Source of the DNA: Strigamia acuminata
Taxonomy: Eukaryota > Arthropoda > Chilopoda > Geophilomorpha > Linotaeniidae
Assembly: GCA_949358305.1 (NCBI GenBank)
Contig: OX442314.1
Location: forward strand, 65,173,369 to 65,233,368
Direction: 5' to 3'
DNA: 60,000 bases
Shown here: one piece after another, positions 3,387-44,562 of the stretch
Numbering within the stretch: the first letter of the stretch is position 1
How the letters are laid out: the number at the start of each line of letters is the position of its first letter
The notes under the pieces: generated by a model
The model's database searches: none
What the model saw: the letters and a program-made list of their open reading frames with translations, nothing else
What the model was told of the DNA's origin: nothing
Program-made: the position numbers and the translations under genes

Positions 3387-4744
3387 TGTTTCTGGCAAGG
3401 TCGCAGGCGACAACCAGGCCAGAAGGAGGGGCGGCAATACTTGACTGCTGCTTGGCTAAAATTGATACACAGAAGTTGGCCAAAGACTTGAAGAAATGCA
3501 AACACTGGAATTGAACTTGCTGCTTCACATGTTGATCTGCCACTGGTGAGTTCAAGGAGGAGGAAGGAGGATTTTTCTACTCACTGCACATTGCTTTCTG
3601 GTTGTATAGAGAAATGAAACTTGGAGAGAAAAAAAAAGAACCCATTTTATTCTCTAAATTCTTAACAAGACTACTACAATTGAATCACGAGGATTTTACA
3701 AAGAAGTCACACTTTAACAATAATAAGAAACAACAAGTGTAACTATCTCCACATTGTATAAGGACACTTGCACTTAAAGTTACAGAGGTCTCTAAGTGCT
3801 TGTAAAGAGAAATAAGTACTGCTGGCACAACAAAACTACCGTAGAAGTTAATAGTTGAAAACACATAAGCCTAACAGCAAGTATTTGACATTAAATGCAA
3901 AAGTATACATTAACAACAGTCTCTAAACACAATGCTCATTGAGAACTAAATTATTCACTCTAAAACACACTGAACAACTCATAAAATAGAGAAAAGAATA
4001 AGTAAAGACATTTTAGACCAATGAGCTGGCAACTTTACAGTAAGTGCAGAAGTTAAGTTATAAATCAACACAGATAAATCTTAAACTTAACACTTTTACA
4101 TTGCATAATAATTAAGTGATTAATTATTAATCAGAACCCACAAAAACTCTTTGGGATTAAACATTTTCTCCTCTCTTTACAGATACAAGTAGACCACTCC
4201 CACAGTAATGGCCGACAATGTAAACAGAGATCACTTGCAGGAGGATAAAAAGGCTTGAAATTAGCTCACTAGACAGGCTACACACAATCTAAGTTAACAA
4301 AACGCTTAATTGGTTAGTAATATACAGAAAACAAACAGAAATTGATTGAAACAGCTTAAAACTGATAATAACATACATTTCTCATTCTAGTACCCTTTTG
4401 CTGTCTGAGAGCATCATTACACCTTGTCACTACATTGACAGTAGTGGACTGGAAACAGGAAAACACTTGGAAACATCAAAACATGCATAACACAGGTAAA
4501 CAAGATAGAAAATAAATTCTAAGTGGATAAATAACTAATGTAAAAACTCTTTTCTTCCCAGATTTATCCGGTCAGATCAACCAGTACTGAGAAATTCACT
4601 CAAACTAACTCAAAGAAGACTTATATTCAGATAAGTGTCTAATTAAATTCCCAATCTAAGATAAATATTAAAAACCCTTTTTAATAATTCCAGATGACTA
4701 ATTTTTAAGACGTTTAGCAGCTTTCCTTTATGTTGCTAGCAACA
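3387..4744 (-). repeat. Element 1 3' LTR
   Basis: 1358 bp, the same length and apparently the same sequence as 8630-9987. Read on the minus strand it starts with the perfect 14-nt palindrome TGTTGCTAGCAACA and ends CCAGAAACA. A polyadenylation signal AATAAA lies on the minus strand at 3646-3651, about 260 bp from the outer end, as expected for an R/U5 boundary region. Confidence 0.95.
3646..3651 (-). promoter_or_regulatory. Polyadenylation signal, element 1
   Basis: AATAAA on the minus strand inside the 3' LTR. The copy in the 5' LTR is at 8889-8894. The position is sensible for 3' end formation of the element transcript. Confidence 0.55.
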
Positions 4745-4770
4745 TAGATTGCCGGCGAAAAGAAAGTGCG
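4745..4770 (-). promoter_or_regulatory. Element 1 3' internal end: pyrimidine-rich motif in place of a polypurine tract
   Basis: The sequence just upstream of the 3' LTR reads, in sense, CTTTCTTTTCGCCGGCAA followed by TCTA and then the LTR. This is pyrimidine-rich, whereas LTR elements normally have a purine-rich plus-strand primer here. Matching motifs stand at the same place in element 2 (30642-30665) and element 3 (43766-43789). Confidence 0.6.
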
Positions 4771-4779
4771 AACAACCCA

Positions 4780-7700
4780 TCATTTAGTTTGATTACTTCT
4801 GGTCTTTGATGATAATATTTGGGAGACCTCTTTCACCTTTTTGTATTTCACTCTGGGTGGCAAGATTCTTTGACGGATCAAATCTGGTATCCACGGAGGT
4901 ATTCTTCGGTTGACAATCATACAACTAAGTCGAATAATTCCGTTGATGATTTTCCTTTTCGTCTCTAGGGACTTCATGGGCTTTGAGAAACATACTCGAC
5001 AGGTTGGTTTGTATTTGTCGATCCCTCCTATCACCTTGACTCTGGTTTCGTGCGAAATTCGTCTTGAAAATTCAGCTTTATCTCCGCAAAAATAACATTT
5101 TGCTTGTAGTTTCACAACAGACTCGGCTAGTGGAACTAACTTGGATATCTGATCAAATGGCTTCCTCTTGAAGTCGACGTCTAATGCGGCGACTATTACC
5201 TTTTTCTTTTGCTCAGCCATTTCATTTGAAAAAGTAAAAATGTCGGGAAAAAACTGTCCTTCATCAATTCCGATTGTCTTCATTAATTTCGTTTTTTCCA
5301 CAGCATTGGTTAGGCTACTGGTCGCGATTGCTTCTCGTCGATGACCATCGTGGGTCACGACTTCGGCTTTACTGTAACGTTCGTCATTGGAGTGCTTAAT
5401 GAGCAAGGACGACGTCTTCTCTTCCTTTTCTAAGATCTTCAATAACTTGGTTGTTTTCCCGGCATACATTAGACCAAGGATAAGGTGAATTCCTCTTTGA
5501 TTGGTCGATAAGACATTTTTCTTTCTCCAGAAATTGAAAATCAATTCTCCGGTCCATCTCAGGATTGCACACAATTTGGGTAAACTGGGCACTTGGTTTG
5601 CTTTCTTTCTCAGTGACTCCGTCTGATTTCGCCCTCGTAATTCCGGCTTCATGTCCGAGCTTGGAGTTCCGTTGACCAATCCTCCATCCTTGAACGACTT
5701 TTTCGTTTTTTGGAGGGTGGTGTCCAGTTCCTCTTTCTCCAGACCACTGGAGAGGCTCGCGGCAAAACAAGAAGGTGTGACGTCTGTCTGTTTATTCACA
5801 CCGGGTTCGCCATTCATGTCGGACAGTGATTTCGGAATTAACTGGACTATTTTGTTTTCATCATTTTTAGGTTGATTTGAGATCACTTCTTCTTTGGACT
5901 CGACCGCCATGCAAGAAATGTTGCACGCTGCCATGTTTTCTTCAAGCGGGTTGTTTGGTTTCAGTCGACCGTTTAGAATCCACCCAAAAATTGTCTGCAT
6001 TAATCCCAACTCGTCGTTGATTTTTCGGCTTCCACCTTGACAAATCTTCCACCATGCGTTGCTTCCTAATAAGACGTCAATGTCTTCCGATTCTGACGGA
6101 TGTATCTCAGCCATCTCAAGTCCGAGTGATTGGACCTGCTTTATGGCTTCTGCTCCAATTATCCCTTTGACTTTCGGGAGCGTGTCGGTTTCTAATGCAA
6201 GGATTGATGTCTTTTCCGTTCCGTGTCTTGATTGCAGTTCGAATCTAAAGACATCATGTGTCGTCGGAACTGGCTTTTTGTTGAGCAGACACTGTGTCAT
6301 CGTGTGTAGTGTCTCGATCTTTTGCATCCGGAATTTATTTACTAGTCTCTTCGTGACGTAGGAGCGATGGCTTCCTGGATCTAGTAATCCGCGGACGGGG
6401 TACATGTCTCCATTTTTCTTCACAAAAAGAGCAGTGAAGACCATCAGTTGAATCTCCACCGACTCGGTAAGCGATACATTAGTAGACACGTTTTCTTCTT
6501 TTGGTGTAATCGCTTTTTCTTTGTTGTTTTTGTTGCAGATTGATGTATGATGTCTTCCACCACACAAGCGACAACAAAACTTCACGGTACATTCTTTGGC
6601 TGTGTGGTTATATCTCAAGCAGTTGAAACAAAGTCGTTTCTTCTTCACTATTTCGATCCTCGCTGGTACATCGAGATCCGCATCACAATTTGCGTGTGCG
6701 TGATCACCATCACAATAAGCGCAGGCGGGTTTGCGGTTTGGATTTGACTTGGAATTCGTACTCAATTTTCCATTCTCGGAAGTCACGAATGAGGACATGG
6801 TTCCAGTTGGTCTTTCTCTTGTTTCCTTTGAAGTTTTCTCAAATTTTTCTGACTTCTTCAGATGAGCGCGCTTAAGGAGAACGCTTTCTTCCGACAATTC
6901 AGCCAGTTGTATCTCGGTTGCTACGAAGTCCAGAAAAACGTTAACATCATCAACTTTTCCTTGATGCTTTCGGTAAAAACGTTGGGAGATCTCCGGTGGA
7001 AATTTTCTAAGTAGTTCTGGAATAAGGTACGTTCCAGTAGTGTCAACTGACACAGACAGTTGCGCCATGGTCCGGACAGCAGATGCCAATGACGTGAATA
7101 GAGCTTTGAGTGGTTCGATTAGGTAGAGATCGAAAACGGGTTTCGACTCCCTAATCATCTTTGAAATAGCATTTCTCTGCGTGTTTTCAGAACCGAATAG
7201 ACTCTCCAATGTATTTTTCGCTAATGGGTAGGCGTCATCAGTTATTGGGTACGACTTGATTGCGGATTCTGCAGCCCCAGTGCAGCATGATCTCAGATAT
7301 ATAAGCTTTTCCACGTTCGAAAGCTCCGTGTTCTGATCAACTGCTGATTCGAATAAATTCGCAAAGCCTCTATATTCAGTTGCATCGCCACTAAATTTGG
7401 CAATGTCGGTTTTCGGCAATCTCGTGTTTCTCCTGGATGAAGCGGACGTCTGGTTTAAACTGGAATTCTGTCCCGGATGGGAACCAAATTGCCCTGCCAT
7501 TTTTCCAGACACTTTTGCTCTTTGCTTCAATAAATTTACTCTGGTTCTAATGTCTTCAATTCGTTGAAGCCCTGCTAAATAATCCTCTCTTTTTGACTCG
7601 TCTTTAAGAGCTTTCAATTCGTCGGCGAGATCACTCAATTGCTGGTCAACCGTTATTTGCATGGCTTCCAGCTCTCCTCCGTCTAGAATGTTGACTGAAG

Positions 7701-7785
7701 ATCCCAGCAGATCCTCGGCTCCTTGAGCCTTTGCTTTCCAAATGACCTCCTTTTCCTCGAGATCAGCAGCGGATAATGTAGCCAT
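4780..7785 (-). CDS. Gag-protease-thymidine kinase fusion polyprotein (element 1)
   Basis: This 1001-aa ORF starts at an ATG in good context (A at -3, G at +4); an in-frame GTG nine bases upstream is a less likely start. The N-terminal half is BEL/Pao Gag, collinear with the Gag of element 2. It has three CCHC-like zinc knuckles (residues 355-367, from 386, and 405-417) and an aspartic-protease motif DPGSHRSY at 469. Similarity to element 2 ends near FGW602. After a 160-residue linker comes a TK1-family thymidine kinase (about 765-935): P-loop GLMYAGKT 771-778, a THD motif, IDEGQFFPD 840-848 with E842 at the catalytic-base position, VIGG-DKY, and zinc cysteines C897, C900, C929, C932. A basic tail of about 66 residues follows. 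TK1 enzymes phosphorylate thymidine to dTMP. RT, RNase H and integrase are missing. The stop lies 35 bp from the 3' LTR. Activity and polyprotein cleavage are inferred. Confidence 0.93.
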   Translation of the reverse strand: MATLSAADLEEKEVIWKAKAQGAEDLLGSSVNILDGGELEAMQITVDQQLSDLADELKALKDESKREDYLAGLQRIEDIRTRVNLLKQRAKVSGKMAGQFGSHPGQNSSLNQTSASSRRNTRLPKTDIAKFSGDATEYRGFANLFESAVDQNTELSNVEKLIYLRSCCTGAAESAIKSYPITDDAYPLAKNTLESLFGSENTQRNAISKMIRESKPVFDLYLIEPLKALFTSLASAVRTMAQLSVSVDTTGTYLIPELLRKFPPEISQRFYRKHQGKVDDVNVFLDFVATEIQLAELSEESVLLKRAHLKKSEKFEKTSKETRERPTGTMSSFVTSENGKLSTNSKSNPNRKPACAYCDGDHAHANCDADLDVPARIEIVKKKRLCFNCLRYNHTAKECTVKFCCRLCGGRHHTSICNKNNKEKAITPKEENVSTNVSLTESVEIQLMVFTALFVKKNGDMYPVRGLLDPGSHRSYVTKRLVNKFRMQKIETLHTMTQCLLNKKPVPTTHDVFRFELQSRHGTEKTSILALETDTLPKVKGIIGAEAIKQVQSLGLEMAEIHPSESEDIDVLLGSNAWWKICQGGSRKINDELGLMQTIFGWILNGRLKPNNPLEENMAACNISCMAVESKEEVISNQPKNDENKIVQLIPKSLSDMNGEPGVNKQTDVTPSCFAASLSSGLEKEELDTTLQKTKKSFKDGGLVNGTPSSDMKPELRGRNQTESLRKKANQVPSLPKLCAILRWTGELIFNFWRKKNVLSTNQRGIHLILGLMYAGKTTKLLKILEKEEKTSSLLIKHSNDERYSKAEVVTHDGHRREAIATSSLTNAVEKTKLMKTIGIDEGQFFPDIFTFSNEMAEQKKKVIVAALDVDFKRKPFDQISKLVPLAESVVKLQAKCYFCGDKAEFSRRISHETRVKVIGGIDKYKPTCRVCFSKPMKSLETKRKIINGIIRLSCMIVNRRIPPWIPDLIRQRILPPRVKYKKVKEVSQILSSKTRSNQTK

Positions 7786-7921
7786 AATCCTCACCGAGAA
7801 ATGAAGAATTCAAGGATCAGTTCAGGATTCAAACTCAACTTAACTGACTAAATTGGTTAACAAGAAATTGTCTAATTCTTTTACACTCTAGGATTTACTG
7901 AACACACAAAAACAGGATGGA

Positions 7922-7999
7922 TATACACAAGCTGTTAACAGGATTGAAACACACGAGATGTTAACAGGATTGGCACACACGAGATGTTAACAGGATTGG
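7922..7999 (-). repeat. 26-bp tandem repeat in element 1 leader
   Basis: Two near-perfect 26-bp units (7948-7973, 7974-7999) and a degenerate third (7922-7947) share GATGTTAACAGGATTGG on the plus strand. They lie just upstream of the element 1 start codon. Confidence 0.75.
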
Positions 8000-8326
8000 C
8001 AAAATAACCCCCAAAATTCAATAATTAAAGGTAATTGAAAATTCTCTTATTTTTACAATTGAGTTTCTGACTAGATACTCGTTTTAATTGGTATACCAAC
8101 ACTAAAGCTTGGTATTATTCACTAATTCACTGGATATTCTCTAAATTCCACAAACTGGAATCGAGAATTTATTCAAATGATTAAGACTTAAACCTCTACT
8201 CCTCCCAACTGCACCAGTTTCTAATCAAAAACTCTTTTTGAAATAATTACAGCAGCAAATTCGGATATTATTCTATTTAAATAATAATTCTTAATAATTA
8301 TTTCTTCAAATCTTCTTGTAGGATGT

Positions 8327-8340
8327 ACATTGCGTTGTGT
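8327..8340 (-). promoter_or_regulatory. Shared 14-nt leader motif, element 1 copy
   Basis: On the minus strand this reads ACACAACGCAATGT, 289 nt inside the 5' LTR. The identical 14-mer is in the leaders of element 2 (24813-24826) and element 3 (39897-39910), whose leaders are otherwise dissimilar. A role as a packaging or Gag-recognition signal is inference. Confidence 0.6.
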
Positions 8341-8608
8341 TTGGAATTGATTGTCGTGCAGGATCGCTCGTACTCTCGAAGCCTTGCTTGATCCAAGTTG
8401 AAAAACCTCTTGACCATCTTGACAATTTGAGAATCCAACTTGAAAAACCCACTTTTTTGCCTGTGAAAGGCGGACGAGAGCATACACTTCACTGTAGTGG
8501 CACAGCTTCAATGGCACTTTACACATAAAAGCTTTGCACAGCTTGAGAACAAAACCCACTGATGAATTTTGCAGCACACATGAAGGTCCACTGAGATAAC
8601 TGGAAGAA

Positions 8609-8626
8609 ATCCTGGTCACGGCACCA
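8609..8626 (-). promoter_or_regulatory. Primer-binding site, element 1 (tRNA-His type)
   Basis: In sense the site reads TGGTGCCGTGACCAGGAT, starting 3 nt after the 5' LTR. The complement ends TCACGGCACCA, which is the acceptor-stem 3' strand, A73 and CCA of animal tRNA-His as I recall that tRNA. The match continues into the T-stem. Confidence 0.8.
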
Positions 8627-8629
8627 AAT

Positions 8630-9987
8630 TGTTTCTGGCAAGGTCGCAGGCGACAACCAGGCCAGAAGGAGGGGCGGCAATACTTGACTGCTGCTTGGCT
8701 AAAATTGATACACAGAAGTTGGCCAAAGACTTGAAGAAATGCAAACACTGGAATTGAACTTGCTGCTTCACATGTTGATCTGCCACTGGTGAGTTCAAGG
8801 AGGAGGAAGGAGGATTTTTCTACTCACTGCACATTGCTTTCTGGTTGTATAGAGAAATGAAACTTGGAGAGAAAAAAAAAGAACCCATTTTATTCTCTAA
8901 ATTCTTAACAAGACTACTACAATTGAATCACGAGGATTTTACAAAGAAGTCACACTTTAACAATAATAAGAAACAACAAGTGTAACTATCTCCACATTGT
9001 ATAAGGACACTTGCACTTAAAGTTACAGAGGTCTCTAAGTGCTTGTAAAGAGAAATAAGTACTGCTGGCACAACAAAACTACCGTAGAAGTTAATAGTTG
9101 AAAACACATAAGCCTAACAGCAAGTATTTGACATTAAATGCAAAAGTATACATTAACAACAGTCTCTAAACACAATGCTCATTGAGAACTAAATTATTCA
9201 CTCTAAAACACACTGAACAACTCATAAAATAGAGAAAAGAATAAGTAAAGACATTTTAGACCAATGAGCTGGCAACTTTACAGTAAGTGCAGAAGTTAAG
9301 TTATAAATCAACACAGATAAATCTTAAACTTAACACTTTTACATTGCATAATAATTAAGTGATTAATTATTAATCAGAACCCACAAAAACTCTTTGGGAT
9401 TAAACATTTTCTCCTCTCTTTACAGATACAAGTAGACCACTCCCACAGTAATGGCCGACAATGTAAACAGAGATCACTTGCAGGAGGATAAAAAGGCTTG
9501 AAATTAGCTCACTAGACAGGCTACACACAATCTAAGTTAACAAAACGCTTAATTGGTTAGTAATATACAGAAAACAAACAGAAATTGATTGAAACAGCTT
9601 AAAACTGATAATAACATACATTTCTCATTCTAGTACCCTTTTGCTGTCTGAGAGCATCATTACACCTTGTCACTACATTGACAGTAGTGGACTGGAAACA
9701 GGAAAACACTTGGAAACATCAAAACATGCATAACACAGGTAAACAAGATAGAAAATAAATTCTAAGTGGATAAATAACTAATGTAAAAACTCTTTTCTTC
9801 CCAGATTTATCCGGTCAGATCAACCAGTACTGAGAAATTCACTCAAACTAACTCAAAGAAGACTTATATTCAGATAAGTGTCTAATTAAATTCCCAATCT
9901 AAGATAAATATTAAAAACCCTTTTTAATAATTCCAGATGACTAATTTTTAAGACGTTTAGCAGCTTTCCTTTATGTTGCTAGCAACA
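8630..9987 (-). repeat. Element 1 5' LTR
   Basis: 1358 bp, apparently identical to 3387-4744. On the minus strand it begins at 9987 with TGTTGCTAGCAACA and ends at 8630 with GAAACA. Short open frames inside it are duplicated in the other LTR and are not genes. Confidence 0.95.
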
Positions 9988-23017: not shown

Positions 23018-23021
23018 TCGC
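23018..23021. repeat. Element 2 target-site duplication (left)
   Basis: TCGC immediately left of the element 2 LTR, repeated exactly at 32238-32241. The site lies inside a C-type satellite monomer. Confidence 0.85.
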
Positions 23022-23296
23022 TGTTGCGAGCAAGAACGCAACAAAAAGATCTGGAGATTTCACGTTGTTTATTTTCTGAAAGAGAGAAAAGGCTTTTTAA
23101 TTTTGTTGTCAAGTTTGAATAGATTTGCAACTCTTATCTGACATGTCCAGTTGGTTTGCTGCCTTGTTGTCACGATCCTGGAAGTTCAAGGGGGTTGTCA
23201 CTTCGCTTGCCACACCTGGAATGTTTGGAAGTTGTGTTTTTAGTCTTTTGGCATTGTTTTATGTGTCTTTTTCACTTGTTTGTGTTATTTCTAGTA

Positions 23297-23304
23297 TTTA
23301 TAAG
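23297..23304 (+). promoter_or_regulatory. TATA-like box in element 2 LTR
   Basis: TTTATAAG lies 275 bp into the LTR, directly before the inverted repeat at 23302. It is a plausible core promoter; no start site can be seen from sequence alone. Confidence 0.35.
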
Positions 23305-23399
23305 TTTTCTCCTGTTTCCAGTTCACTTGTGAGAGAGATAGGCGTGCATCGGCAAGATGGCCGCCATAGCATAAGTGAGCTGGGAAACAGGAGAACTTG
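23302..23399 (+). repeat. Long imperfect inverted repeat in element 2 LTR
   Basis: The arm at 23302-23331 (core TCTCCTGTTTCC) pairs with 23370-23399 (core GGAAACAGGAGA) over nearly 30 positions, with two single-base bulges and G-U-compatible changes. The loop is about 38 nt and contains AAGATGGCCGCCAT (23354-23367). The 3' LTR has the same structure 7644 bp downstream. Confidence 0.7.
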
Positions 23400-24606
23400 A
23401 AATAAGCACAATTGCAGTTTTAGTGCTTGTTTCACTGGTAATTTAATTTATACTAACTTGTATTGGTGTTTAAGGTAGTCCACAGGTGTCTTGGGTCGCT
23501 GGATGGACGTTGGACATCGTTTGTGAGCGTTTGCGAGCGTCGGGCGTGAGCGCACGCCTTGCGACGCCTCTCGTGGTCGTATGGGTCCTGCAAATGAGTT
23601 GAATCGGTCGGGTTTCAATGTCCAAGCACTGGGAAAGTTGTACTGACCGTTCTAGGACGCAGATCCATCGTTGAGAAGGCCTGTGAGTCGCTCGCGACCT
23701 TGTCTGGCTCCATTCACGTCATTTTAGCAGTTGCATGGTCGCCATCTTAGATTTGGTGCTGCACTGGTGCCCTGTCATTGTTTCTTTTGGGGTTTTAATG
23801 GAACCTGGACATAGGGAATATTTACTAGTTATTGTTTGTATATTTACCAATATTAGTTGTTGTTAATCTAAGCTTTTACCTTTGTTATTGCATGGTTGTT
23901 AAGGGGTTAAAACTGTGACACGTTGCGCCCTCTTTTGGTGGTGATTGGGTTTGGGCTCAGCATTGTGTTTTGAGTGTAACTAATGTTAGTTTTAGCCTTT
24001 GAATTATTTGTTAAGTTTAAGTGAAGTGCTGTTTGCACAGGTCATACTGTTATCAAGGTGTTAGGTTAAGTTTTGTCTTTATTTATGTTAAGTTTGACAT
24101 CTGTTGTAGATATACGGAAACCTTGTCGGCACTATTGTTATTATTCAAATCTGTATTGTTTGGTCACTGACATTTATTGTAATCAGGTGACCAGTTGTTA
24201 AGAGTAGGTTGCTAAAGAAGCAACAGTTGTTATCAGTTGTTAAGTATTAAAACCAGTTGTTATTTTTCCTCCTTCTTTGGATAATTTATTCCTGGGTTTC
24301 TTTTACTTCAATAAACATGATGACTTGTGAGTAGAGAGCTTTGCCTGCTCTCCTCCTCCCTGGGAGCACGGAATTTCTACCCCGCAGCTAAAGAGGTTTT
24401 GCCAATCACTTCATCTAAATGCAGTCAGGCCTAGTTTCATGCAGTCAGGCCTAACCCTTCTTCAAGTTAGGCTTACGCTCAGAGAGAGGATTTCAACTTG
24501 TCTCTTCAACCACTATACAGTCTCGGGCGGTTTCCAGAGTTTGGTGACCAATTCGCCAGTTTTTTCCTGTGAGATCCAAGGTTGTTTGCTACAGGGAGCT
24601 GTTTTT

Positions 24607-24626
24607 TGGTACCGTGATTCCAGGAT
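24607..24626 (+). promoter_or_regulatory. Primer-binding site, element 2 (imperfect tRNA-His type)
   Basis: TGGTACCGTGATTCCAGGAT begins 13 nt after the LTR. Relative to the contiguous site of element 1 it has one substitution (A for G at position 5) and two extra T residues between the acceptor-stem and T-stem halves. Confidence 0.6.
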
Positions 24627-24656
24627 TTCATGCGCGTGTGTACAGCGCGCATGAAA
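24626..24656 (+). other. Leader hairpin with palindromic loop, element 2
   Basis: TTTCATGCGCG (24626-24636) and CGCGCATGAAA (24646-24656) form a perfect 11-bp stem around the loop TGTGTACAG, which contains the self-complementary hexamer TGTACA. A stem-loop with a palindromic loop just after the primer site is the design of retroviral RNA dimerisation sites; that role here is inference. Confidence 0.65.
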
Positions 24657-24812
24657 AAGAGGTCATTCGGACGTTCAGCAAGTGATTCAAGTGGTTTGGT
24701 GCGTGCCAGTTGGTTTGTTTGTACGGCTGGTTCCGTGAGCGACCGGCATCAAGTGCGCATGCCAGAGAGTCACGTGAGAGCGGCCATTGACGTCCTGAGT
24801 CTGCCAAGTCAA

Positions 24813-24826
24813 ACACAACGCAATGT
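24813..24826 (+). promoter_or_regulatory. Shared 14-nt leader motif, element 2 copy
   Basis: ACACAACGCAATGT, 220 nt after the 5' LTR, identical to the motifs in elements 1 (8327-8340, minus) and 3 (39897-39910). Confidence 0.6.
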
Positions 24827-25336
24827 GCAAGTTGAACCGCTACAGCCTGAAAGAAGAAGAACAGTTTTAGTTTATAAAGTGTATTTTGGTGGGCTGTTTT
24901 TTGGGTTTTTTGATGTGTCCCTTCTGGGGGGAGGGGAAGTGTGCATTTTCGTGTTTAAGTTAAAGTTTAAGTTTTTCTCCACTATAACTGCTTAGGCAGG
25001 GGAGAATTAGATAGCCTAGTAGTTAAAAGGGTCTGCTTGACAGCTTAGAGTTTTTGGGTGTTGCATCACTCAAATCCTTAGGAGTTTAGAGAGTTTAGCA
25101 GTTAACAGGAATTAGTCTACTATAGGAATTAGAGACTGGGTGTTGCGCCACTCAGATCTTTAGTAGCATAGAGTTTACAGTGAGTCTGTCTGTATATCAT
25201 TCAGATCACTAGCGGTTTAGTTGAGCAGTTAGTGTATTTGGTCATTGTTTGTCCAAATATCACCTGTGTTTAGAGTTGTGTGTCTTTGGTTTTTGACTGA
25301 CTGATTGTCTTCACTTTCTGCCATTCCAGGTTTGAC

Positions 25337-28300
25337 ATGGCTACAGGAGGTGGATCAAGGTCAGGTTCAGGGAGAACAACGCCAACAACGGTTGAGCAAC
25401 AACCGCCGGAAGAAATGGACGTGTTGTCTGGGAGGTTCACGACTTTGGGGATCTCTTTGGACGCGCTTTTGAGAAGGTCCTTGACACTAAAAGATACTGG
25501 CGAGCTGGAAGCTGTAGAAATGGCTGCAGATGAACAGATGATGAGAATGATAAACGACCTGAACACGATGCAGCCCAACCTGACAAGAGATCAGTACTTG
25601 GCAAATCTAAGGGAAATCGAAGAGTTAGAGACACCGATTTCGGTTCTTAAGCACAGAACCCGAATGTCAAAGAAGTTCGTGACGCATTGGTCAGCAAATC
25701 CAGCAAATGCTTCAGCGTTGACGACCAGTACGTCTCAGAGTTCGATTTTGAACCAGACCTTGTCGCAATCGACAAGAAGGCATAATAATGCAAAGCTTCC
25801 TAAGTTGGAAATGCGGAAATTCAATGGAGATGTGACGACATTTCGTCCCTTCCTAAGCAGCTTTGATTCTGCTGTTCACAGCAACCCTGATTTATCAGAA
25901 ATTGAGAAGTTGCAATACTTGCAGTCGCTGTGCACGGGAGAAGCTGCCATGCTGATCTCTGCATTCCCTTTAGTGGACGGTAATTACAATTTGGCAAGAG
26001 AAGAGTTGGAACGTTCCTACGGGGACGATGAAGCCCAGAGAGTGGCATTGGTCAAGTCCATAAGGGATATGAGACAGGTTACGGAATTGCATCCGGTCAA
26101 AGCTGTCCGTACACAGTTGACCAAGGTGTCCACTGCTATCCGCTTGCTGGAGCAGTTGAGCGTTCCAGTACAGACTGCTGGTCTGCTTCTGGCACCCGAC
26201 GTGCTGAGGAAATTTCCACCTGCCATGGTGATGAGGTTTTACCAGCAGCAAGGGGCTAAGACCTCAAATTTAGTGACAATCTTGAATTTTTTTGCGGCTG
26301 AAGTTCAGCTCTTGGAGCAGATGGAAGATGTCATGGGGGCAGGAGGTCTTGCAACTAAAAAAGACAAGTCTGGAAGTTCCGACAAGGATAAGGATCAACG
26401 CAAGGGCACGATGTCCACCTGCGCCACGTCCAAAAAAGCCAAAGAGTCTTTTAGCCCAAAGCTGACCGTGGGAAGCGCAATTTGCATTTTTTGCAAAGAA
26501 GGTCATGCTAACACTTTCTGTAGGAAGGAAATGAGCGTGGCAGAGAAGACCACGATCATTCAACAGAACCGACTTTGCTTCAATTGCCTGCAAGAAGGAC
26601 ACAGGGCAATGCGGTGCCAGGTTAAAACCAGCTGCAGGACTTGCGGCGGACGACATCATTCGTCCATCTGCAGGAAATTGAACACAGGAAGTGGAGGTGG
26701 GATAGAGAAGCCCAAGGACGTGAGCGCGAACGTTTCCTTGGCGATCTCCTCAACACTTCAGTTGATGATATTCACAGCGGAGTTAAAAACAAAGTCTGGA
26801 GGTTCGCACGCGATACGTGGCATGTTAGATCCGGGCAGCCATCGGTCCTACATTTTAAAGAGTGTAGCCGACCGGATACGGTTGAAGAGTTGCGGGTCAA
26901 TAGAAGCCACAGCCCAACGCCTCAATGAAGAGGATAATGCTGGATCGACGTCTTACGACGTTTACAAGCTACTCCTTCAGTCTAGACACGGAGCCAGAGA
27001 GCTCAAGGTGACGGCTTTAAGTGCAAGAAGCCTACCGCATGTGTATGGGATAGCCAGCCCTGATACCATTCAGAAGGTTAAAGATTTGGGGTTCGAATTG
27101 GCTGAAGACTTACCTTCGACTGCAGGCAATGTTGATATCTTGCTTGGAGTTGATGTTTGGTGGGAAATCTGCCTTGACGGACGGAAACGTCTTGATAACC
27201 GCTTGGGTTTGGTCAATACCATTTTTGGTTGGGTGTTGTCAGGAGCCGCTGGGTCGACAGATGTCTTCTCCGAGAGCTCGCGTGACGTTTCTTGCTGCAA
27301 CACCTGTGAGATTAAGACTGACCGTGACTTGGAAAAGCTTTGGAGTTTGGAGGCTGTTGGAATTACCGCTGGCGAACGCGATTCAGATTTTGTTCGAGAT
27401 CGCTTTGAGAAGTCGCACAAGCGAATGGAGGATGGTCGCTACCAGGTTTGCTTGCCCTTCAACGATAAGATTGGGGCTTTGGAGTCAAACTGGGAGTTGG
27501 CTCTGAACCAACTATCACATACGCTTAGGCGAATTGATAGTAACAGCGACCACAAGGAACGTTATAACAAAGCCATGTGGGACTACGTCAAGGAAGAGCA
27601 CGCGGAAGTAGTACCTCTTGCAGAGAGATACAAGAAAACTGGAGTTTATGTTATTCCGCACCATCCAGTGATCAAGGAGGACCGGGAAACGACCAAGTTC
27701 CGTGTCGTTTTCAACGCGTCGTCGGCGAAGAAGGGGCTACCTTCGCTGAACGACTGTCTGTATCCTGGCCCTTCTTTAAATCCGGATATTGTCCCAGTTA
27801 TGATCCGTTTTCGCCTTTTTTGTGTAGTGGCGATAGCAGACATCAAGCAGGCTTTCCTGCAAGTGCTGATTAATCCTGACCACTGCGATTTTTTGCGGTT
27901 CCTTTGGGTTTCAGAAGAATATTTCCAAGAAGGATATTCTTGGCAGAATTTGTGGGATCACCTGGTCGTTTTAAGAATGATAGTCGTCCCTTTCGGGGTG
28001 AATTCTTCGCCATTCTTGTTGTGCGCTGTCATCCGCGCGCAAGGGCGATTGTATTTGGTGCTTTTCCCCAAAGAGGCAGACGCCCTCGATAAGGGCATCT
28101 ACATGGACGACTTGACGTCCGGGGCCGATGGAACCCAAGAGACAGTTACGCACTGTGTCAATCTACGCAGGATCCTTGACGAGGGAAAGATGCCTCTCGT
28201 CAAGTGGGCATCATCAAAGGCAGATGTCTTTGACGCACTCAAAGACAAGGATTTCCACATGCGTGCAGACAAGTTTGAAGATCTAGGAGTTGTCAAGATG

Positions 28301-30613
28301 CTGGGCATCCTTTGGAGCGTCCAAGATGATACGCTAATGTTCAGGATCCCAACCGGTGTTGAGATTCCCCAGTCAAGGAGGGGCATTCTGTCATTATTGG
28401 CATCAGTCTTCGACCCCTTGGGGTTGATAGCTCCAGTCATTTTGCGGATGAAGCTACTTTTACAGAGTATGTGGGGTCGCGACATCAAATGGGACGACAT
28501 AATCTCAGAAGAGAACCGAGAGATAGTGGCCAAATGGTACGCCGATCTTCAGCGCCTCACCGAAGCCCGGGTGAAGCGTTGGATGGGGACGTACTCGAGC
28601 CAAGAAATGGACATTGACGTCTTTTGCGACGCAAGTCCACAGGCGTACGGGTGCGCAATCTACGTTCGAGCTGCGTCAGGCGCGACCCAACTGCTCTTGA
28701 GCAAAAGCCGAATTGCCCCCACCACCAAATTGACTTTGCCACGCCTAGAATTGACCGCAACTGTTGTTGGAGTCCGGATGGTGGAGTACATCCTAGAGGA
28801 TTTCCTACCAGGTTATCCAGTTGGGAAGATAAGGTATTACTCGGACTCAATGGTTGCGCTCGGGTGGTTGAAGTCTGATAAGAACAGGTGGAAGCCATAT
28901 GTCTCCAACAGAGTGGCAGAAGTTCTTGAAAAGTCAAGTCCGAGTCAGTGGGCATACGTCCCGACGGACAGGAATCCAGCGGACGTATTGACACGCCCAT
29001 GCGAGGCAAAGAACCTTTTGGCCAACCGTCTCTGGTGGGACGGGCCCGGTCAGTTGGAAGACCTCGCGGACGAACCTGAGGACGTTGACCTCCCAATGGA
29101 AGAGGCAAAAAAGGAAAAGGTAGCTTTGGTTGCGTCAGATGGAGAAGCGCATATGTGCGAGGTTTTCAAGCGATTTAGTAGTTTTAATCGCCTCGTGCGA
29201 GTTGTCGCGCTCATGCGGCGCTGGCTTCCTTTTTTCGCCCGCGGGAGGGACCTCGAGGTTCTCGAGATAGAAGTTGCCGAAGAAAGAGTCATCCGCTTGG
29301 CCCAGGTCTTGAGTTTTCCAGACGAAAGACAAGCCGCAATGTTGAAAGAGAAAGTGGCAAAGGGCTCTATCCTGAAAAATTTCGACGTTTTTCTGGATGA
29401 GAGAGATTTACTAAGACTAAGGAGCCGTCTAGGGAAGTCAGCGCTTCCCTTCGACGAGGCATTTCCCATCATTTTACACCCGGATAGTTGGGTAACAAGA
29501 CTAATCATCAAGAAGGTCCACTTACAGCTCCTGCATGGTGAGCTGAGTGAGACGTTTTACCGGTTGAGAGACAAGTATTGGATTGTAAGAGGACGCCGAA
29601 CGGTCAAGGCTGTGATCCGGAGTTGCTTGGTCTGCAAACGAGAGCGGTTGGAACGAAATAACCCAGCCACTGGTGACCCTCCTATGGAGCGCGTCACGCC
29701 GGCAGCCCCGTTCCAGCATACAGGAATTGACCACCTCGGCCCTCTCACAGTCAAGCATAAGGAGAAAGGAAGAAAAGTCTATATTCTGTTGTTTACCTGC
29801 CTAGTAACACGAGCGATCCATTTGGAAGTCTCTGAGAACCTTTCGGTGGAAAAGTTCCTTCTGGCCTTCCGTCGTTTCGGCGCCAGATTTGGGTACCCGG
29901 CGAAAGTGTTCTCCGACAACTCCAAAACTTTCGAGCGAGGAAGCCAGGAGATACAGTCGTGGGGTAAATTGCTGACCAAGGATGGGATCCGGACGTTCCT
30001 TTCGGAGAAGAGAGTGGTTTGGTCGTTCATCCCACCATTGTCACCTTGGGCTGGAGGAGCCTGGGAGAGACTTGTGCGTTCGGTGAAAGATAAACTACGT
30101 AAGATGCTGCTGCGTAGGACGGTAGACTTGGAGACGCTTCAGACGCTAGCCGTCGAGATAAGCTCCGTGCTTAACTCAAGGCCCCTGTCTTACGTGCATG
30201 AGGAGGTTGACGGCGGGAGAATTCTCAGCCCTGAGAACTTTCTCACTGGAGGAATGCCCAAGTGGGTTATCAACCGTCCACTGCACGCGATACAGAAGAA
30301 AGACCTACGGAGATTGGATAGAAAAAGACGACTTTTCATTTGGGAGTTCTGGCGGATTTGGCGCGAGAGTTACCTGAAACAGCTAAGAAATTTTCATGAA
30401 GTCAAGGGTGACTCCCGTTTCAAGAATCCGGAAGTCGACCAGATAGTATTGTTGGAAAAGGTCGGCTGCAATCCGTACTTCTGGCCGCTGGCACGGGTCA
30501 TCGAAGTCCTACCAGGCGAAGATGGTTTTGTGCGCGTCGTGAGAGTGGTTACAGCCAATGGAAAGGAATATCGACGCTCGGTCAAACACGTAAGGGCTTT
30601 GGAGCTGGACTAG
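25337..30613 (+). CDS. gag-pol: Gag-Pol polyprotein, BEL/Pao type (element 2)
   Basis: This 1758-aa ORF in one frame makes the structural and enzymatic proteins of the element. The ATG has a good context (G at -3, G at +4). Order of parts: Gag with the BEL/Pao-type domain and three zinc knuckles (C383, C414, C433 starts); aspartic protease motif DPGSHRSY at 498; reverse transcriptase with D835 (ADIKQAF) and Y922-MDD; RNase H with D1098, E1138, D1170; integrase zinc motif H1395, H1400, C1430, C1433; and integrase core D1465, D1527, E1577. The C-terminal region resembles the domain that follows integrase in BEL/Pao proteins. The family copies its RNA into cDNA in particles and integrates it. 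No stop or frameshift interrupts it and every catalytic residue looked for is present. The protease motif reads DPG where DSG or DTG is usual. No envelope gene follows; the stop is 52 bp from the 3' LTR. Confidence 0.96.
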   Translation: MATGGGSRSGSGRTTPTTVEQQPPEEMDVLSGRFTTLGISLDALLRRSLTLKDTGELEAVEMAADEQMMRMINDLNTMQPNLTRDQYLANLREIEELETPISVLKHRTRMSKKFVTHWSANPANASALTTSTSQSSILNQTLSQSTRRHNNAKLPKLEMRKFNGDVTTFRPFLSSFDSAVHSNPDLSEIEKLQYLQSLCTGEAAMLISAFPLVDGNYNLAREELERSYGDDEAQRVALVKSIRDMRQVTELHPVKAVRTQLTKVSTAIRLLEQLSVPVQTAGLLLAPDVLRKFPPAMVMRFYQQQGAKTSNLVTILNFFAAEVQLLEQMEDVMGAGGLATKKDKSGSSDKDKDQRKGTMSTCATSKKAKESFSPKLTVGSAICIFCKEGHANTFCRKEMSVAEKTTIIQQNRLCFNCLQEGHRAMRCQVKTSCRTCGGRHHSSICRKLNTGSGGGIEKPKDVSANVSLAISSTLQLMIFTAELKTKSGGSHAIRGMLDPGSHRSYILKSVADRIRLKSCGSIEATAQRLNEEDNAGSTSYDVYKLLLQSRHGARELKVTALSARSLPHVYGIASPDTIQKVKDLGFELAEDLPSTAGNVDILLGVDVWWEICLDGRKRLDNRLGLVNTIFGWVLSGAAGSTDVFSESSRDVSCCNTCEIKTDRDLEKLWSLEAVGITAGERDSDFVRDRFEKSHKRMEDGRYQVCLPFNDKIGALESNWELALNQLSHTLRRIDSNSDHKERYNKAMWDYVKEEHAEVVPLAERYKKTGVYVIPHHPVIKEDRETTKFRVVFNASSAKKGLPSLNDCLYPGPSLNPDIVPVMIRFRLFCVVAIADIKQAFLQVLINPDHCDFLRFLWVSEEYFQEGYSWQNLWDHLVVLRMIVVPFGVNSSPFLLCAVIRAQGRLYLVLFPKEADALDKGIYMDDLTSGADGTQETVTHCVNLRRILDEGKMPLVKWASSKADVFDALKDKDFHMRADKFEDLGVVKMLGILWSVQDDTLMFRIPTGVEIPQSRRGILSLLASVFDPLGLIAPVILRMKLLLQSMWGRDIKWDDIISEENREIVAKWYADLQRLTEARVKRWMGTYSSQEMDIDVFCDASPQAYGCAIYVRAASGATQLLLSKSRIAPTTKLTLPRLELTATVVGVRMVEYILEDFLPGYPVGKIRYYSDSMVALGWLKSDKNRWKPYVSNRVAEVLEKSSPSQWAYVPTDRNPADVLTRPCEAKNLLANRLWWDGPGQLEDLADEPEDVDLPMEEAKKEKVALVASDGEAHMCEVFKRFSSFNRLVRVVALMRRWLPFFARGRDLEVLEIEVAEERVIRLAQVLSFPDERQAAMLKEKVAKGSILKNFDVFLDERDLLRLRSRLGKSALPFDEAFPIILHPDSWVTRLIIKKVHLQLLHGELSETFYRLRDKYWIVRGRRTVKAVIRSCLVCKRERLERNNPATGDPPMERVTPAAPFQHTGIDHLGPLTVKHKEKGRKVYILLFTCLVTRAIHLEVSENLSVEKFLLAFRRFGARFGYPAKVFSDNSKTFERGSQEIQSWGKLLTKDGIRTFLSEKRVVWSFIPPLSPWAGGAWERLVRSVKDKLRKMLLRRTVDLETLQTLAVEISSVLNSRPLSYVHEEVDGGRILSPENFLTGGMPKWVINRPLHAIQKKDLRRLDRKRRLFIWEFWRIWRESYLKQLRNFHEVKGDSRFKNPEVDQIVLLEKVGCNPYFWPLARVIEVLPGEDGFVRVVRVVTANGKEYRRSVKHVRALELD

Positions 30614-30641
30614 CGTGGTCGAGTCGCTTAGGCCGGCTGTC

Positions 30642-30665
30642 CGCTTCTTTTTCGGCTGGCAGCGA
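30642..30665 (+). promoter_or_regulatory. Element 2 3' internal end: pyrimidine-rich motif
   Basis: CGCTTCTTTTTCGGCTGGCA followed by GCGA abuts the 3' LTR. It matches the equivalent sites of elements 1 and 3 and is not a polypurine tract. Confidence 0.6.
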
Positions 30666-32237
30666 TGTTGCGAGCAAGAACGCAACAAAAAGATCTGGAG
30701 ATTTCACGTTGTTTATTTTCTGAAAGAGAGAAAAGGCTTTTTAATTTTGTTGTCAAGTTTGAATAGATTTGCAACTCTTATCTGACATGTCCAGTTGGTT
30801 TGCTGCCTTGTTGTCACGATCCTGGAAGTTCAAGGGGGTTGTCACTTCGCTTGCCACACCTGGAATGTTTGGAAGTTGTGTTTTTAGTCTTTTGGCATTG
30901 TTTTATGTGTCTTTTTCACTTGTTTGTGTTATTTCTAGTATTTATAAGTTTTCTCCTGTTTCCAGTTCACTTGTGAGAGAGATAGGCGTGCATCGGCAAG
31001 ATGGCCGCCATAGCATAAGTGAGCTGGGAAACAGGAGAACTTGAAATAAGCACAATTGCAGTTTTAGTGCTTGTTTCACTGGTAATTTAATTTATACTAA
31101 CTTGTATTGGTGTTTAAGGTAGTCCACAGGTGTCTTGGGTCGCTGGATGGACGTTGGACATCGTTTGTGAGCGTTTGCGAGCGTCGGGCGTGAGCGCACG
31201 CCTTGCGACGCCTCTCGTGGTCGTATGGGTCCTGCAAATGAGTTGAATCGGTCGGGTTTCAATGTCCAAGCACTGGGAAAGTTGTACTGACCGTTCTAGG
31301 ACGCAGATCCATCGTTGAGAAGGCCTGTGAGTCGCTCGCGACCTTGTCTGGCTCCATTCACGTCATTTTAGCAGTTGCATGGTCGCCATCTTAGATTTGG
31401 TGCTGCACTGGTGCCCTGTCATTGTTTCTTTTGGGGTTTTAATGGAACCTGGACATAGGGAATATTTACTAGTTATTGTTTGTATATTTACCAATATTAG
31501 TTGTTGTTAATCTAAGCTTTTACCTTTGTTATTGCATGGTTGTTAAGGGGTTAAAACTGTGACACGTTGCGCCCTCTTTTGGTGGTGATTGGGTTTGGGC
31601 TCAGCATTGTGTTTTGAGTGTAACTAATGTTAGTTTTAGCCTTTGAATTATTTGTTAAGTTTAAGTGAAGTGCTGTTTGCACAGGTCATACTGTTATCAA
31701 GGTGTTAGGTTAAGTTTTGTCTTTATTTATGTTAAGTTTGACATCTGTTGTAGATATACGGAAACCTTGTCGGCACTATTGTTATTATTCAAATCTGTAT
31801 TGTTTGGTCACTGACATTTATTGTAATCAGGTGACCAGTTGTTAAGAGTAGGTTGCTAAAGAAGCAACAGTTGTTATCAGTTGTTAAGTATTAAAACCAG
31901 TTGTTATTTTTCCTCCTTCTTTGGATAATTTATTCCTGGGTTTCTTTTACTTCAATAAACATGATGACTTGTGAGTAGAGAGCTTTGCCTGCTCTCCTCC
32001 TCCCTGGGAGCACGGAATTTCTACCCCGCAGCTAAAGAGGTTTTGCCAATCACTTCATCTAAATGCAGTCAGGCCTAGTTTCATGCAGTCAGGCCTAACC
32101 CTTCTTCAAGTTAGGCTTATGCTCAGAGAGAGGATTTCAACTTGTCTCTTCAACCACTATACAGTCTCGGGCGGTTTCCAGAGTTTGGTGACCAATTCGC
32201 CAGTTTTTTCCTGTGAGATCCAAGGTTGTTTGCTACA
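30666..32237 (+). repeat. Element 2 3' LTR
   Basis: 1572 bp, a copy of 23022-24593 with one substitution noticed (offset 1455). It carries AATAAA at 31954-31959 and a duplicate of the 91-aa open frame at 30769-31044, which I regard as non-coding. Confidence 0.95.
31954..31959 (+). promoter_or_regulatory. Polyadenylation signal, element 2
   Basis: AATAAA in the 3' LTR, about 280 bp from its end, suited to end the full-length transcript. Confidence 0.55.
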
Positions 32238-35200
32238 TCGCAGTTGACTTAGCACAAACACCAATGTCTCTAAATGTTCAGAAATAGTGTTTAAACCTTA
32301 GTAGAAGGCTCCAATGTAAGTTTTAGAAACATCCAACCAATGATTTGGGAGAATAGACTTTTGATCTCATCACAGTTGACTTAGCACAAACACCACAAGA
32401 CCAATGTCTCTGAATGTTCAGAAATAGTGTTTAAACCTTAGTAGAAGGCTCCAATGTAAGTTTTAGAAACATCCAACCAATGATTTGGGAGAATAGACTT
32501 TTGATCTCATCACAGTTGACTTAGCACAAACACCACAAGTCCAATGTCTCTGAATGTTCAGAAATGGTGTTTAAACCTTAGTAGAAGGCTCCAATGTAAG
32601 TTTTAGAAACATTCAACCATTGATTTAGGAGAATAGACTTTTGATCTCATCACAGTTGACTTAGCACAAACACCACAAGACCAATGTCTCTGAATGTTCA
32701 GAAATAGTGTTTAAACCTTAGTAGAAGGCTCCAATGTAAGTTTTAGAAACATCCAACCAATGATTTGGGAGAATAGACTTTTGATCTCATCACAGTTGAC
32801 TTAGCACAAACACCACAAGACCAATGTCTCTGAATGTTCAGAAATAGTGTTTAAACCTTAGTAGAAGGCTCCAATGTAAGTTTTAGAGACATCCAACCAA
32901 TGATTTGGGAGAATAGACTTTTGATCTAATCACAGTTGACTTAGCACAAACACCACAAGACCAATGTCTCTGAATGTTCAGAAATAGTGTTTAAACCTTA
33001 GTAGAAGGCTCCAATGTAAATTTTAGAAACATCCAACCAATGATTTGGGAGAATAGACTTTTGATCTCATCACAGTTGACTTAGCACAAACACCACAAGT
33101 CCAATGTCTCTGAATGTTCAGAAATAGTGTTTAAACCTTAGTAGAAGGCTCCAATGTAAGTTTTAGAAACATTCAACCATTGATTTAGGAGAATAGACTT
33201 TTGATCTCATCACAGTTGACTTAGCACAAACACCACAAGACCAATGTCTCTGAATGTTCAGAAATAGTGTTTAAACCTTAGTAGAAGGCTCCAATGTAAA
33301 TTTTAGAAACATCCAACCAATGATTTGGGAGAATAGACTTTTGATCTCATCACAGTTGACTTAGCACAAACACCACAAGACTAATGTCTCTGAATGTTCA
33401 GAAATAGTGTTTAAACCTTAGTAGAAGGCTCCAATGTAAGTTTTAGAGACATCCAACCAATGATTTGGGAGAATAGACTTTTGATCTAATCACAGTTGAC
33501 TTAGCACAAACACCACAAGACCAATGTCTCTGAATGTTCAGAAATAGTGTTTAAACCTTAGTAGAAGGCTCCAATGTAAGTTTTAGAAACATCCAACCAA
33601 TGATTTGGGAGAATAGACTTTTGATCTCATCACAGTTGACTTAGCACAAACACCACAAGACCAATGTCTCTGAATGTTCAGAAATAGTGTTTAAACCTTA
33701 GTAGAAGGCTTCAATGTAAGTTTTAGAAACATCCAACCAATGATTTGGGAGAATAGACTTTTGATCTCATCACAGTTGACTTAGCAGAAACACCACAAGT
33801 CCAATGTCTCTGAATGTTCAGAAATAGTGTTTAAACCTTAGTAGAAGGCTCCAATGTAAGTTTTAGAAACATTCAACCATTGATTTAGAAGAATAGACTT
33901 TTGATCTCATCACAGTTGACTTAGCACAAACACCACAAGACCAATGTCTCTGAATGTTCAGAAATAGTGTTTAAACCTTAGTAGAAGGCTCCAATGTAAG
34001 TTTTAGAAACATCCAACCAATGATTTGGGAGAATAGACTTTTGATCTCATCACAGTTGACTTAGCACAAACACCACAAGTCCAATGTGTCTGAATGTTTA
34101 TAAATAGTGTTTAAACCTTTGTAGAAGCCTTAAATGTAAGTTTTAGCAACACCCAAGCAATAAATTTTGAAAAAAAAATTTTGAGCTCATTTCAGATCGC
34201 AGTTGACTTAGCACAAACACCAATGTCTCTGAATGTTCAGAAATAGTGTTTAAACCTTAGTAGAAGGCTCCAATGTAAGTTTTAGAAACATCCAACCAAT
34301 GATTTGGGAGAATAGACTTTTGATCTCATCACAGTTGACTTAGCACAAACACCACAAGTCCAATGTCTCTGAATGTTCAGAAATAGTGTTTAAACCTTAG
34401 TAGAAGGCTCCAATGTAAGTTTTAGAAACATCCAACCAATGATTTGGGAGAATAGACTTTTGATCTCATCACAGTTGACTTAGCACAAACACCACAAGTC
34501 CAATGTCTCTGAATGTTCAGAAATAGTGTTTAAACCTTAGTAGAAGGCTCCAATGTAAGTTTTAGAAACATTCAACCATTGATTTAGGAGAATAGACTTT
34601 TGATCTCATCACAGTTGACTTAGCACAAACACCACAAGACCAATGTCTCTGAATGTTCAGAAATAGTGTTTAAACCTTAGTAGAAGGCTCCAATGTAAGT
34701 TTTAGAAACATCCAACCAATGATTTGGGAGAATAGACTTTTGATCTCATCACAGTTGACTTAGCACAAACACCACAAGACCAATGTCTCTGAATGTTCAG
34801 AAATAGTGTTTAAACCTTAGTAGAAGGCTCCAATGTAAGTTTTAGAGACATCCAACCAATGATTTGGGAGAATAGACTTTTGATCTAATCACAGTTGACT
34901 TAGCACAAACACCACAAGACCAATGTCTCTGAATGTTCAGAAATAGTGTTTAAACCTTAGTAGAAGGCTCCAATGTAAGTTTTAGAAACATCCAACCAAT
35001 GATTTGGGAGAATAGACTTTTGATCTCATCACAGTTGACTTAGCACAAACACCACAAGACCAATGTCTCTGAATGTTCAGAAATAGTGTTTAAACCTTAG
35101 TAGAAGGCTCCAATGTAAGTTTTAGAAACATCCAACCAATGATTTGGGAGGATAGACTTTTGATCTCATCACAGTTGACTTAGCAGAAACACCACAAGTC

Positions 35201-43789: not shown

Positions 43790-44562
43790 TGTTGCGAGCA
43801 CGCGCAACATGGATTTTTGCTATCGCAATAGCGGATTTGCTTTGATTAATCATTAATTTAAGTTTGTGTTTAGTTAATAGTGCAGCTTAAGTTTTGGCTA
43901 AAGGTTAAATGAATTTCGTGTAGTTTGTGACGTGTGAGTGGTGAATTACCTGATTTAAGCTGTCTTTCTTAAGGTAATCTTGCATCTTTTCTTTGATTCT
44001 TTGGAGTTTTACTGCTTGGATTCGTCCAAAGAGTTGCTGTTGTTAGTTCCTAAGTTAGTTTATTTATTTGAAACACTTTGTCTTAATTTATTACGGTTTT
44101 GTGCCTTTTGTAATGATTTTATACTCGAAACTGTGTATTTTCTTGTATACGCTTTATCATTTTGTCACTAGAGGGACAATTCGCCTCTTGCGAGCGATTG
44201 TTGCCACTCGTTGCTAAGAGCCGCTGCTCTAATTGTTGTAGGTTGCGCAGCAACTACACTGACTTGTTATATAGTTTTTCTAGTCCTAAGTAACGTTGAT
44301 TTTCTCCTCTCTTATGTGTAATGTTTTGATAGATTTTAACTTTACAATAAATTCGTTTTTGTGTGCTAACTTGAGCACAATAGTATTGAATTATCCCAAC
44401 ATGTTCAGCAGCTCACTTTACAGGTTTCACATCAAGGTTTTTCCTGTAATGGACTTTCTTCTTTGGGATTCTTCACAAGTTCTGGTAAATAGGGTTATTT
44501 ATTTTAACCATTTTCTAATGTCTTCTAGAGTGCAACACGGTCTTCAAGCACTGCTAGAAACA
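43790..44562 (+). repeat. Element 3 3' LTR
   Basis: 773 bp, nearly identical to 38571-39342. The polyadenylation signal AATAAA is at 44346-44351. Confidence 0.95.
44346..44351 (+). promoter_or_regulatory. Polyadenylation signal, element 3
   Basis: AATAAA in the 3' LTR, about 210 bp from its end. Confidence 0.5.

Follow-up and report, generated by a model that had tools for sequence, protein, structure and literature searches.

Some retroviruses cope with low dNTP supply by removing SAMHD1. Others cope with low dNTP pools via a carried dUTPase (Hizi and Herzig 2015, PMC4531489), and according to passages of this review most studies of non-primate lentiviruses find their dUTPase critical in non-dividing cells alone. 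The bdelloid elements Juno, Vesta, and TelKA carry, according to sections of the paper describing them, a dUTPase between PR and RT, keep pol, and have other captured ORFs (PMC5408684). Such dUTPase-bearing retroelements are the closest parallel in logic to the element described here, with an additional thymidylate-economy enzyme inside the element, although the enzyme is not a thymidine kinase (TK). The main text of the dUTPase review (PMC4531489) nowhere uses the term “thymidine kinase”, and that of the bdelloid paper (PMC5408684) nowhere uses “kinase”.

The closest parallels in anatomy, in which a cellular sequence was captured by an LTR element, are the gag-onc retroviruses and the maize element Bs1. 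In gag-onc retroviruses, the cellular sequence is fused to Gag and pol is lost. TR-GAG and BARE-2-type elements also have no pol and are assumed to be mobilized in trans, as we assume for the present element; we know of none with an added metabolic enzyme. The gene segments that Bs1 captured are partial (PMC13317346; Bs1 is also treated in PMC7264820), whereas in the element reported here a complete TK domain is maintained by purifying selection across two multicopy families that have diverged. Teratorn is described in a paper whose relevant passages name TK solely as absent (PMC5601938).

No TK-bearing LTR retrotransposon was named in the literature searched by titles and abstract openings. 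When the TK part was compared with proteins of ~552 to 1757 aa in a database of 5.8 billion proteins, 1 of 482 candidates matched, a TK of Trypanosoma congolense, and the full ORF gave 15 matches of 7986 candidates in the same database, none of them listing PF00265. The absence from protein databases is weak evidence, because transposon proteins are often omitted from gene sets. Capture of a cellular gene by a non-autonomous LTR element is known already; the present case is unusual in that an entire metabolic enzyme was captured and is maintained by selection in the position of pol.

We analyzed a window of 60,000 nucleotides (G000:C1:65173369-65233368) of the 237.5-Mb genome of Strigamia acuminata. 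This genome gave 54 matches to the cuticle domain Chitin_bind_4 and, in an exon-by-exon search, one weak match to an insect odorant receptor, a pattern suggestive of an arthropod outside the insects. One of the elements of the window, element 1, is probably a BEL/Pao LTR retrotransposon that lacks pol, has a host-type TK1 instead, is copied in trans by BEL/Pao enzymes, and uses the kinase for dTTP supply.

Anatomy of element 1 and of its autonomous relative

A satellite of ~140 bp (some units of 147 bp) fills positions 1-23000, 32200-38000, and 44000-60000 of the window, both sides of which are joined by long inverted satellite matches; it is perhaps centromeric. Element 1 sits within this array, on the minus strand, and has the following features.

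8630..9987, minus strand: 5' LTR, TGTTGCTAGCAACA...CCAGAAACA; identical to 3387-4744 over 1358 bp
8609..8626, minus strand: putative primer binding site, so called from its position
7795..8629, minus strand: leader of 835 bp between the 5' LTR and the ORF, no coding domain seen
4780..7794, minus strand: single ORF of 1004 aa, encoding in this order Gag, protease, linker, thymidine kinase, and tail
6970..7395, minus strand: DUF1759 Gag domain, residues 134-275 (Pfam PF03564, E 3.2e-17)
6535..6723, minus strand: Gag cysteine/histidine knuckles, residues about 358-420, which align with those of the autonomous BEL/Pao element
5959..6447, minus strand: BEL/Pao protease region, residues about 450-612 (LLDPGSHRSYV ... 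FGWILNG)
5491..5952, minus strand: fast-evolving linker, residues 615-768, pN/pS 0.56 (family B) and 0.59 (family A)
4987..5490, minus strand: TK1-type thymidine kinase domain, residues 769-936 (PF00265, E 1.3e-52)
4783..4986, minus strand: weakly constrained C-terminal tail, pN/pS 0.79 (B) and 0.56 (A)
4745..4779, minus strand: 35-bp stretch from the stop codon to the 3' LTR, belonging to a block also present in family A
3387..4744, minus strand: 3' LTR, 1358 bp, no difference from 8630-9987

The DUF1759 Gag domain, the protease, and the paired LTRs with TG...CA ends assign element 1 to BEL/Pao. The protease was identified by 38% identity to the autonomous BEL/Pao element across residues 29-625, and one family A copy (L009) gave an Asp_protease_2 match (E 5e-4) that lies below the curated cut-off. 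The internal region measures 3885 bp, and the ORF is open across its 1004 codons, so the kinase is indeed uninterrupted and in frame with Gag and protease, as had been proposed from the letters of the window.

The Pfam scan of the ORF revealed no RT, RNase H, or integrase, and no dUTPase domain either. There was no further frame of useful size in the 835-bp leader or in the 35 bp past the stop codon. Judged by its sequence, element 1 is a pol-less, non-autonomous derivative of BEL/Pao and, no pol having been found in it, must obtain its cDNA from enzymes supplied in trans, a point absent from the earlier note. An autonomous relative lies in the same satellite array.

23019..32237, plus strand: autonomous BEL/Pao element, LTRs 23019-24593 and 30663-32237, 99.87% identical
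25337-30613, plus strand: its ORF of 1758 aa (Gag-PR-RT-RNaseH-IN)

In the autonomous ORF, Peptidase_A17, DUF5641, and Integrase_H2C2 exceeded their cut-offs, and RVT_1 matched more weakly. Over Gag-PR, 232 of 615 aligned positions (38%) are identical between the two elements, and the homology ends just past the protease motif FGWILNG, which means that the TK, past a linker of ~150 residues, stands where pol begins in the relative. The LTR tips, the putative primer binding site, and the 3' block are alike in families A and B (see below) and in the autonomous element of the window. The stretch at the putative primer binding site is very similar in four other copies (L010, L027, L009, and L012) and in the autonomous element, while the likeness of the latter to the 35-bp block is less exact. 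This block is pyrimidine-rich on the coding strand, and we thus did not call it a polypurine tract, though it stands at the place expected for one. In sum of likeness, element 1 shares with BEL/Pao (Belpaoviridae) the DUF1759 Gag, the knuckles, the protease, one long ORF, and related LTR tips and primer binding site; it differs in having a TK1 kinase where they carry RT, RNase H, and integrase.

The thymidine kinase domain

The earlier note on this window had recognized a TK1-type kinase inside the polyprotein of an LTR element, and a search with the TK family profile bears this out. PF00265 matched residues 769-936 of the ORF with 178.6 bits (cut-off 20.6) over positions 3-176 of the 176 of the profile, i.e., the whole domain, a sequence score that excludes a match by chance. 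The domain had been placed correctly at 4981-5493, with the Pfam match itself covering 4987-5490. A search with a 273-aa piece aligned the TK (residues 36-207 of the piece) with the solved cytosolic thymidine kinases 2wvj, 1w4r, and 1xbt, which we take to be human enzymes, with E values down to 1.1e-41. Of the signatures on which the identification had been based, the P-loop, DEGQFF, VIGG.DKY, and both CxxC pairs are in register with the solved TK1s. The predicted model of residues 760-945 has a mean pLDDT of 84.8 and a pTM of 0.82, and its weak spot is the region of the VIGG loop, where residues 156-167 of the piece fall below a pLDDT of 50. The domain is that of the cytosolic animal TK1, with 45-49% identity to 15 aligned database homologues, but here it is part of a retrotransposon polyprotein and its tail is weakly constrained.

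All 24 distinct retrieved copies with a TK frame (9 of family A and 15 B-like) match at the P-loop, IDEGQFF, and the zinc cysteines, and the TK of the element is predicted to act catalytically. The exception is the window copy, which has one unusual residue at a nearly invariant position of the P-loop; because of this residue, its own kinase may be weaker than those of its siblings. Another copy, L041, carries a single unusual residue immediately ahead of the catalytic motif.

Copies and families in the genome

The genome was searched with PF00265 (150 scored matches of 205 candidates) and with a spider TK, P0120 (150 scored of 201 candidates). We assigned families from the score, frame length, and position of the 150 spider-TK rows, and for rows that were not retrieved the Gag-protease-TK fusion was deduced from the frame length. 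By this grouping, 91 of the 150 scored places, a lower bound for the genome, belong to the fusion families and their older relatives (48 of family B, 40 of A, 1 of A', and 2 of B'), so the search for further copies, one of the checks that had been suggested, returned dozens of them. The other places are TK repeats without gag, described at the end (46 of family C, 8 of D, and 5 of E). Among the matches listed, 46 of 48 family B frames are open at 1009 or 1013 aa without a stop, the other two being one of 638 aa and one of 1022 aa with a TGA. Likewise, 37 of 40 listed family A frames are open at 995 or 1002 aa, and the three others have 333, 702, and 792 aa. No listed open frame of families A, B, A', and B' exceeds 1022 aa.

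Families A and B are co-linear across 999 aa and 52% identical, with about 50% identity between their TK pieces. A third Gag-protease-TK lineage, A' (L002, G000:C1:64237398), is 75% identical to family A and was met once among the 150 scored places. B' (L021, G000:C5:15445000-15454999) has diverged from family B and would help to date that family; its TK piece is 87% identical to that of the window, and the locus has two TK matches separated by about 5.3 kb.

A search with the Gag-protease of the window ORF yielded 64 scored matches (of 1308 candidates); family B accounts for 51 (at least 97% identity) and family A for 13 (56%). A TK is listed directly downstream of 48 of the 51 family B matches. 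The remaining three have frames of 799, 880, and 954 aa, and one of them (L034) gave a single match to two TK motifs searched, so some copies have lost the TK domain. Conversely, among the matches listed, one family B TK has no Gag alongside. Both a chance ORF and a misassembly are ruled out by the 91 of 150 scored TK places with their long open frames and by the TK coming next after 48 of 51 family B Gag-proteases.

Many of these insertions are young. The two LTRs do not differ at all in the window copy, L009, L012, and L027, and they show 1 difference in 1362 positions in L010. The flanks of L027 have CCAA duplicated. Compared with empty satellite units, the window insertion has GTG duplicated with the fourth base mismatched, and the flanks of L010 have no exact match. 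Many young copies without pol, with cis signals like those of the autonomous relative, are the pattern of a trans-mobilized element. Potential sources of pol abound: at least 147 BEL/Pao RT matches were found in the genome (147 scored of 919 candidates), a good number of those listed having the open frames of 1768-1787 aa of intact autonomous elements, and the listed A and B copies cluster with BEL/Pao RT matches in the same parts of contigs C1, C5, C8, C9, and C13. The autonomous element of the window is a candidate for the pol source in trans, although its Gag-PR is just 38% identical to that of element 1. The leader had 40 scored genome matches of 58 candidates; 38 of them lie directly before a listed family B Gag and 2 have no listed Gag alongside, and none of the 40 was recognized as part of an autonomous element.

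Selection on the kinase

We computed pairwise pN/pS within families for 12 distinct B and 8 distinct A sequences, leaving L002 and L021 out of B and counting duplicates once (L001 = L009, L003 = L028, the second frame of L028 = L039, and L030 = the window). The ratio of TK was 0.204 in B and 0.083 in A, that of Gag-PR 0.032 and 0.117, that of the linker 0.559 and 0.591, and that of the tail 0.790 and 0.558. These low values for TK against the high ones of the linker and the tail reveal that TK is held nearly like Gag-protease (less so in B) while its flanks drift. The comparison of A' (L002) with A (L009) gave a dN of 0.107 and a dS of 1.02 for TK (ratio of 0.105), and ratios of 0.071 for Gag-PR, 0.38 for the linker, and 0.36 for the tail. 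Between B and an older B' copy, the TK ratio was 0.14-0.18 (dS of 0.21-0.25) and that of the upstream linker 0.47-0.58. Between A and B, dN was 0.36 for TK and 0.39 for Gag-PR (a stretch including the linker), with dS saturated.

TK is thus under purifying selection in families A and B. Neutral decay of the TK in other copies, which the earlier note had raised as an objection to its own claim, is contradicted across copies (0.08-0.20 for TK versus 0.56-0.79 for linker and tail). The window copy alone shows no constraint, since comparison of its TK with that of L027 gives 2 synonymous and 5 non-synonymous differences (ratio of 0.69); this copy may be on its way out, but not the family. That TK is constrained is no proof that selection acts on thymidine phosphorylation.

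Origin of the kinase

The first tree was made with 27 of 120 listed homologues and 16 frames from the S. acuminata genome; four rows (one D copy, Syphacia, and two Anaeramoeba) were removed by a motif filter. The second, without the metagenome protein P0083, kept 5 of 8 viral rows, drawn from 80 fetched. Both trees are unrooted, and in both the TKs of the S. acuminata genome form one side of a branch (support of 98/96 in the first and 98/97 in the second). P0083 joined this clade weakly in the first tree (74/75). Phylogeny with animal and viral TKs had been envisaged in the earlier note, and in the second tree five LTR-borne TKs form one clade (95/90), while C, D, and E form another group (96/90). 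The LTR-borne TKs lie nearer to animal TK1s than to the 5 viral TKs kept in this unrooted tree. The co-linearity of A and B over 999 aa, with 52% identity, places the capture of the TK before their split, most simply as a single event.

The captured sequence probably came from a host-lineage TK1 gene. A viral origin was rejected: the 5 viral rows in the tree fall outside the S. acuminata TKs, and the 80 kept IMG/VR TK loci (146 confirmed) reach at most 37% identity over the best segment, which is not the same measure as the 45-49% of the 15 database homologues. No Gag-PR relatives were found in IMG/VR. No intron-bearing host TK1 was found among the 150 scored places, from which low-scoring exon matches would drop out, and genes of the dNK type are present in the host (exon matches).

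Possible role of the kinase

In the mechanism that we propose, the transcript of the element would make Gag-protease-TK, and Gag would assemble particles on that same RNA. RT and integrase would be supplied by co-resident intact BEL/Pao elements. The kinase, inside the particle or released from it, would phosphorylate thymidine to dTMP, which host kinases would raise to dTTP for the RT of the helper. That the TK would raise dTMP and dTTP for cDNA synthesis, as was first suggested from the letters, is plausible. The kinase being in one frame with Gag, the benefit would go mainly to the encoding RNA, and this would explain why selection keeps TK. More tentatively, the element may be a satellite parasite of retrotransposons that traded its polymerase for self-provisioning: Gag-TK1 would load its own particles with a dTMP-making enzyme, the borrowed RT would work best there, and the element would outcompete its helper where dTTP is scarce. 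Several further TK1 multiplications in the genome suggest that dTTP supply is contested by its mobile DNA.

The TK may instead be kept for a non-catalytic or altered role, as a particle scaffold, as a nucleotide sensor timing packaging or reverse transcription, or as a dock for helper enzymes, which we regard as unlikely. TK1 proteins are tetrameric, with ATP and dTTP among their ligands. For a domain fused to Gag, a structural function comes naturally; in one frame with Gag, TK would be as abundant as Gag, beyond the needs of an enzyme; and the window copy has its P-loop change yet is a young insertion. Against this, the other retrieved copies retain the P-loop, the catalytic motif, and the zinc cysteines, as do families that are ~50% identical in TK, and a scaffold would not need all of these. 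We think it quite improbable that the kinase is a domesticated nucleotide-salvage family serving the host or cell rather than the element. Three gag-less TK repeat families and the abundance of TK-bearing copies speak for it, but the constraint on Gag-protease is about equal to that on TK or stronger, the insertions examined are recent, with LTRs that hardly differ, and the host has dNK-type genes too. A slightly smaller probability still goes to a repeated origin of the pol-less form by deletion from a larger Gag-Pol-TK element that is scarce in the assembly or absent from it: a missing full-length master would fit the failure to recognize a helper with the same leader, but A and B have the same architecture at 52% identity, and the A/B families hold 91 of the 150 scored TK places with listed frames of at most 1022 aa against the 1768-1787 aa of autonomous elements. 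That the TK is a passive transduced host gene, intact merely through insertion youth, is very improbable, for although identical or nearly identical LTR pairs mean that single copies had no time to decay, TK is constrained far above linker and tail between copies and families.

If the kinase supplies precursors, as in the trans-copied, pol-less element that we favor, then a shortage of precursors can hold back retrotransposition so strongly that carrying an enzyme is worth its cost. The element makes this assumed dNTP limit on retrotransposition directly testable. With it, the capture of cellular genes by retroelements goes beyond passive fragments and takes in a metabolic enzyme that is maintained.

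Thymidine kinase repeats without gag

Family C (L026/L029, e.g., G000:C5:9503497-9514999) has a gag-less TK1 with a 190-aa frame in a dispersed repeat of ~14 kb or more, most of which looks non-coding. Two 501-bp probes of this family have many contigs in common and usually lie about 12.07 kb apart (8.9 kb in the copy at G000:C5:9503497-9514999); 38 of 40 and 19 of 41 of their listed matches, respectively, are 100% identical. Family D (L015-L020, L022, and L024) is a gag-less TK1 repeat found mostly on small contigs. Family E (L013 and L014; 5 places among the matches listed) is closest to spider TK, with 50-52% identity. Finally, a copia-type ORF (RVT_2) at L025:1084-3849, plus strand, carries a methyl-CpG-binding domain (MBD) in the middle of its polyprotein (E 6.5e-11).
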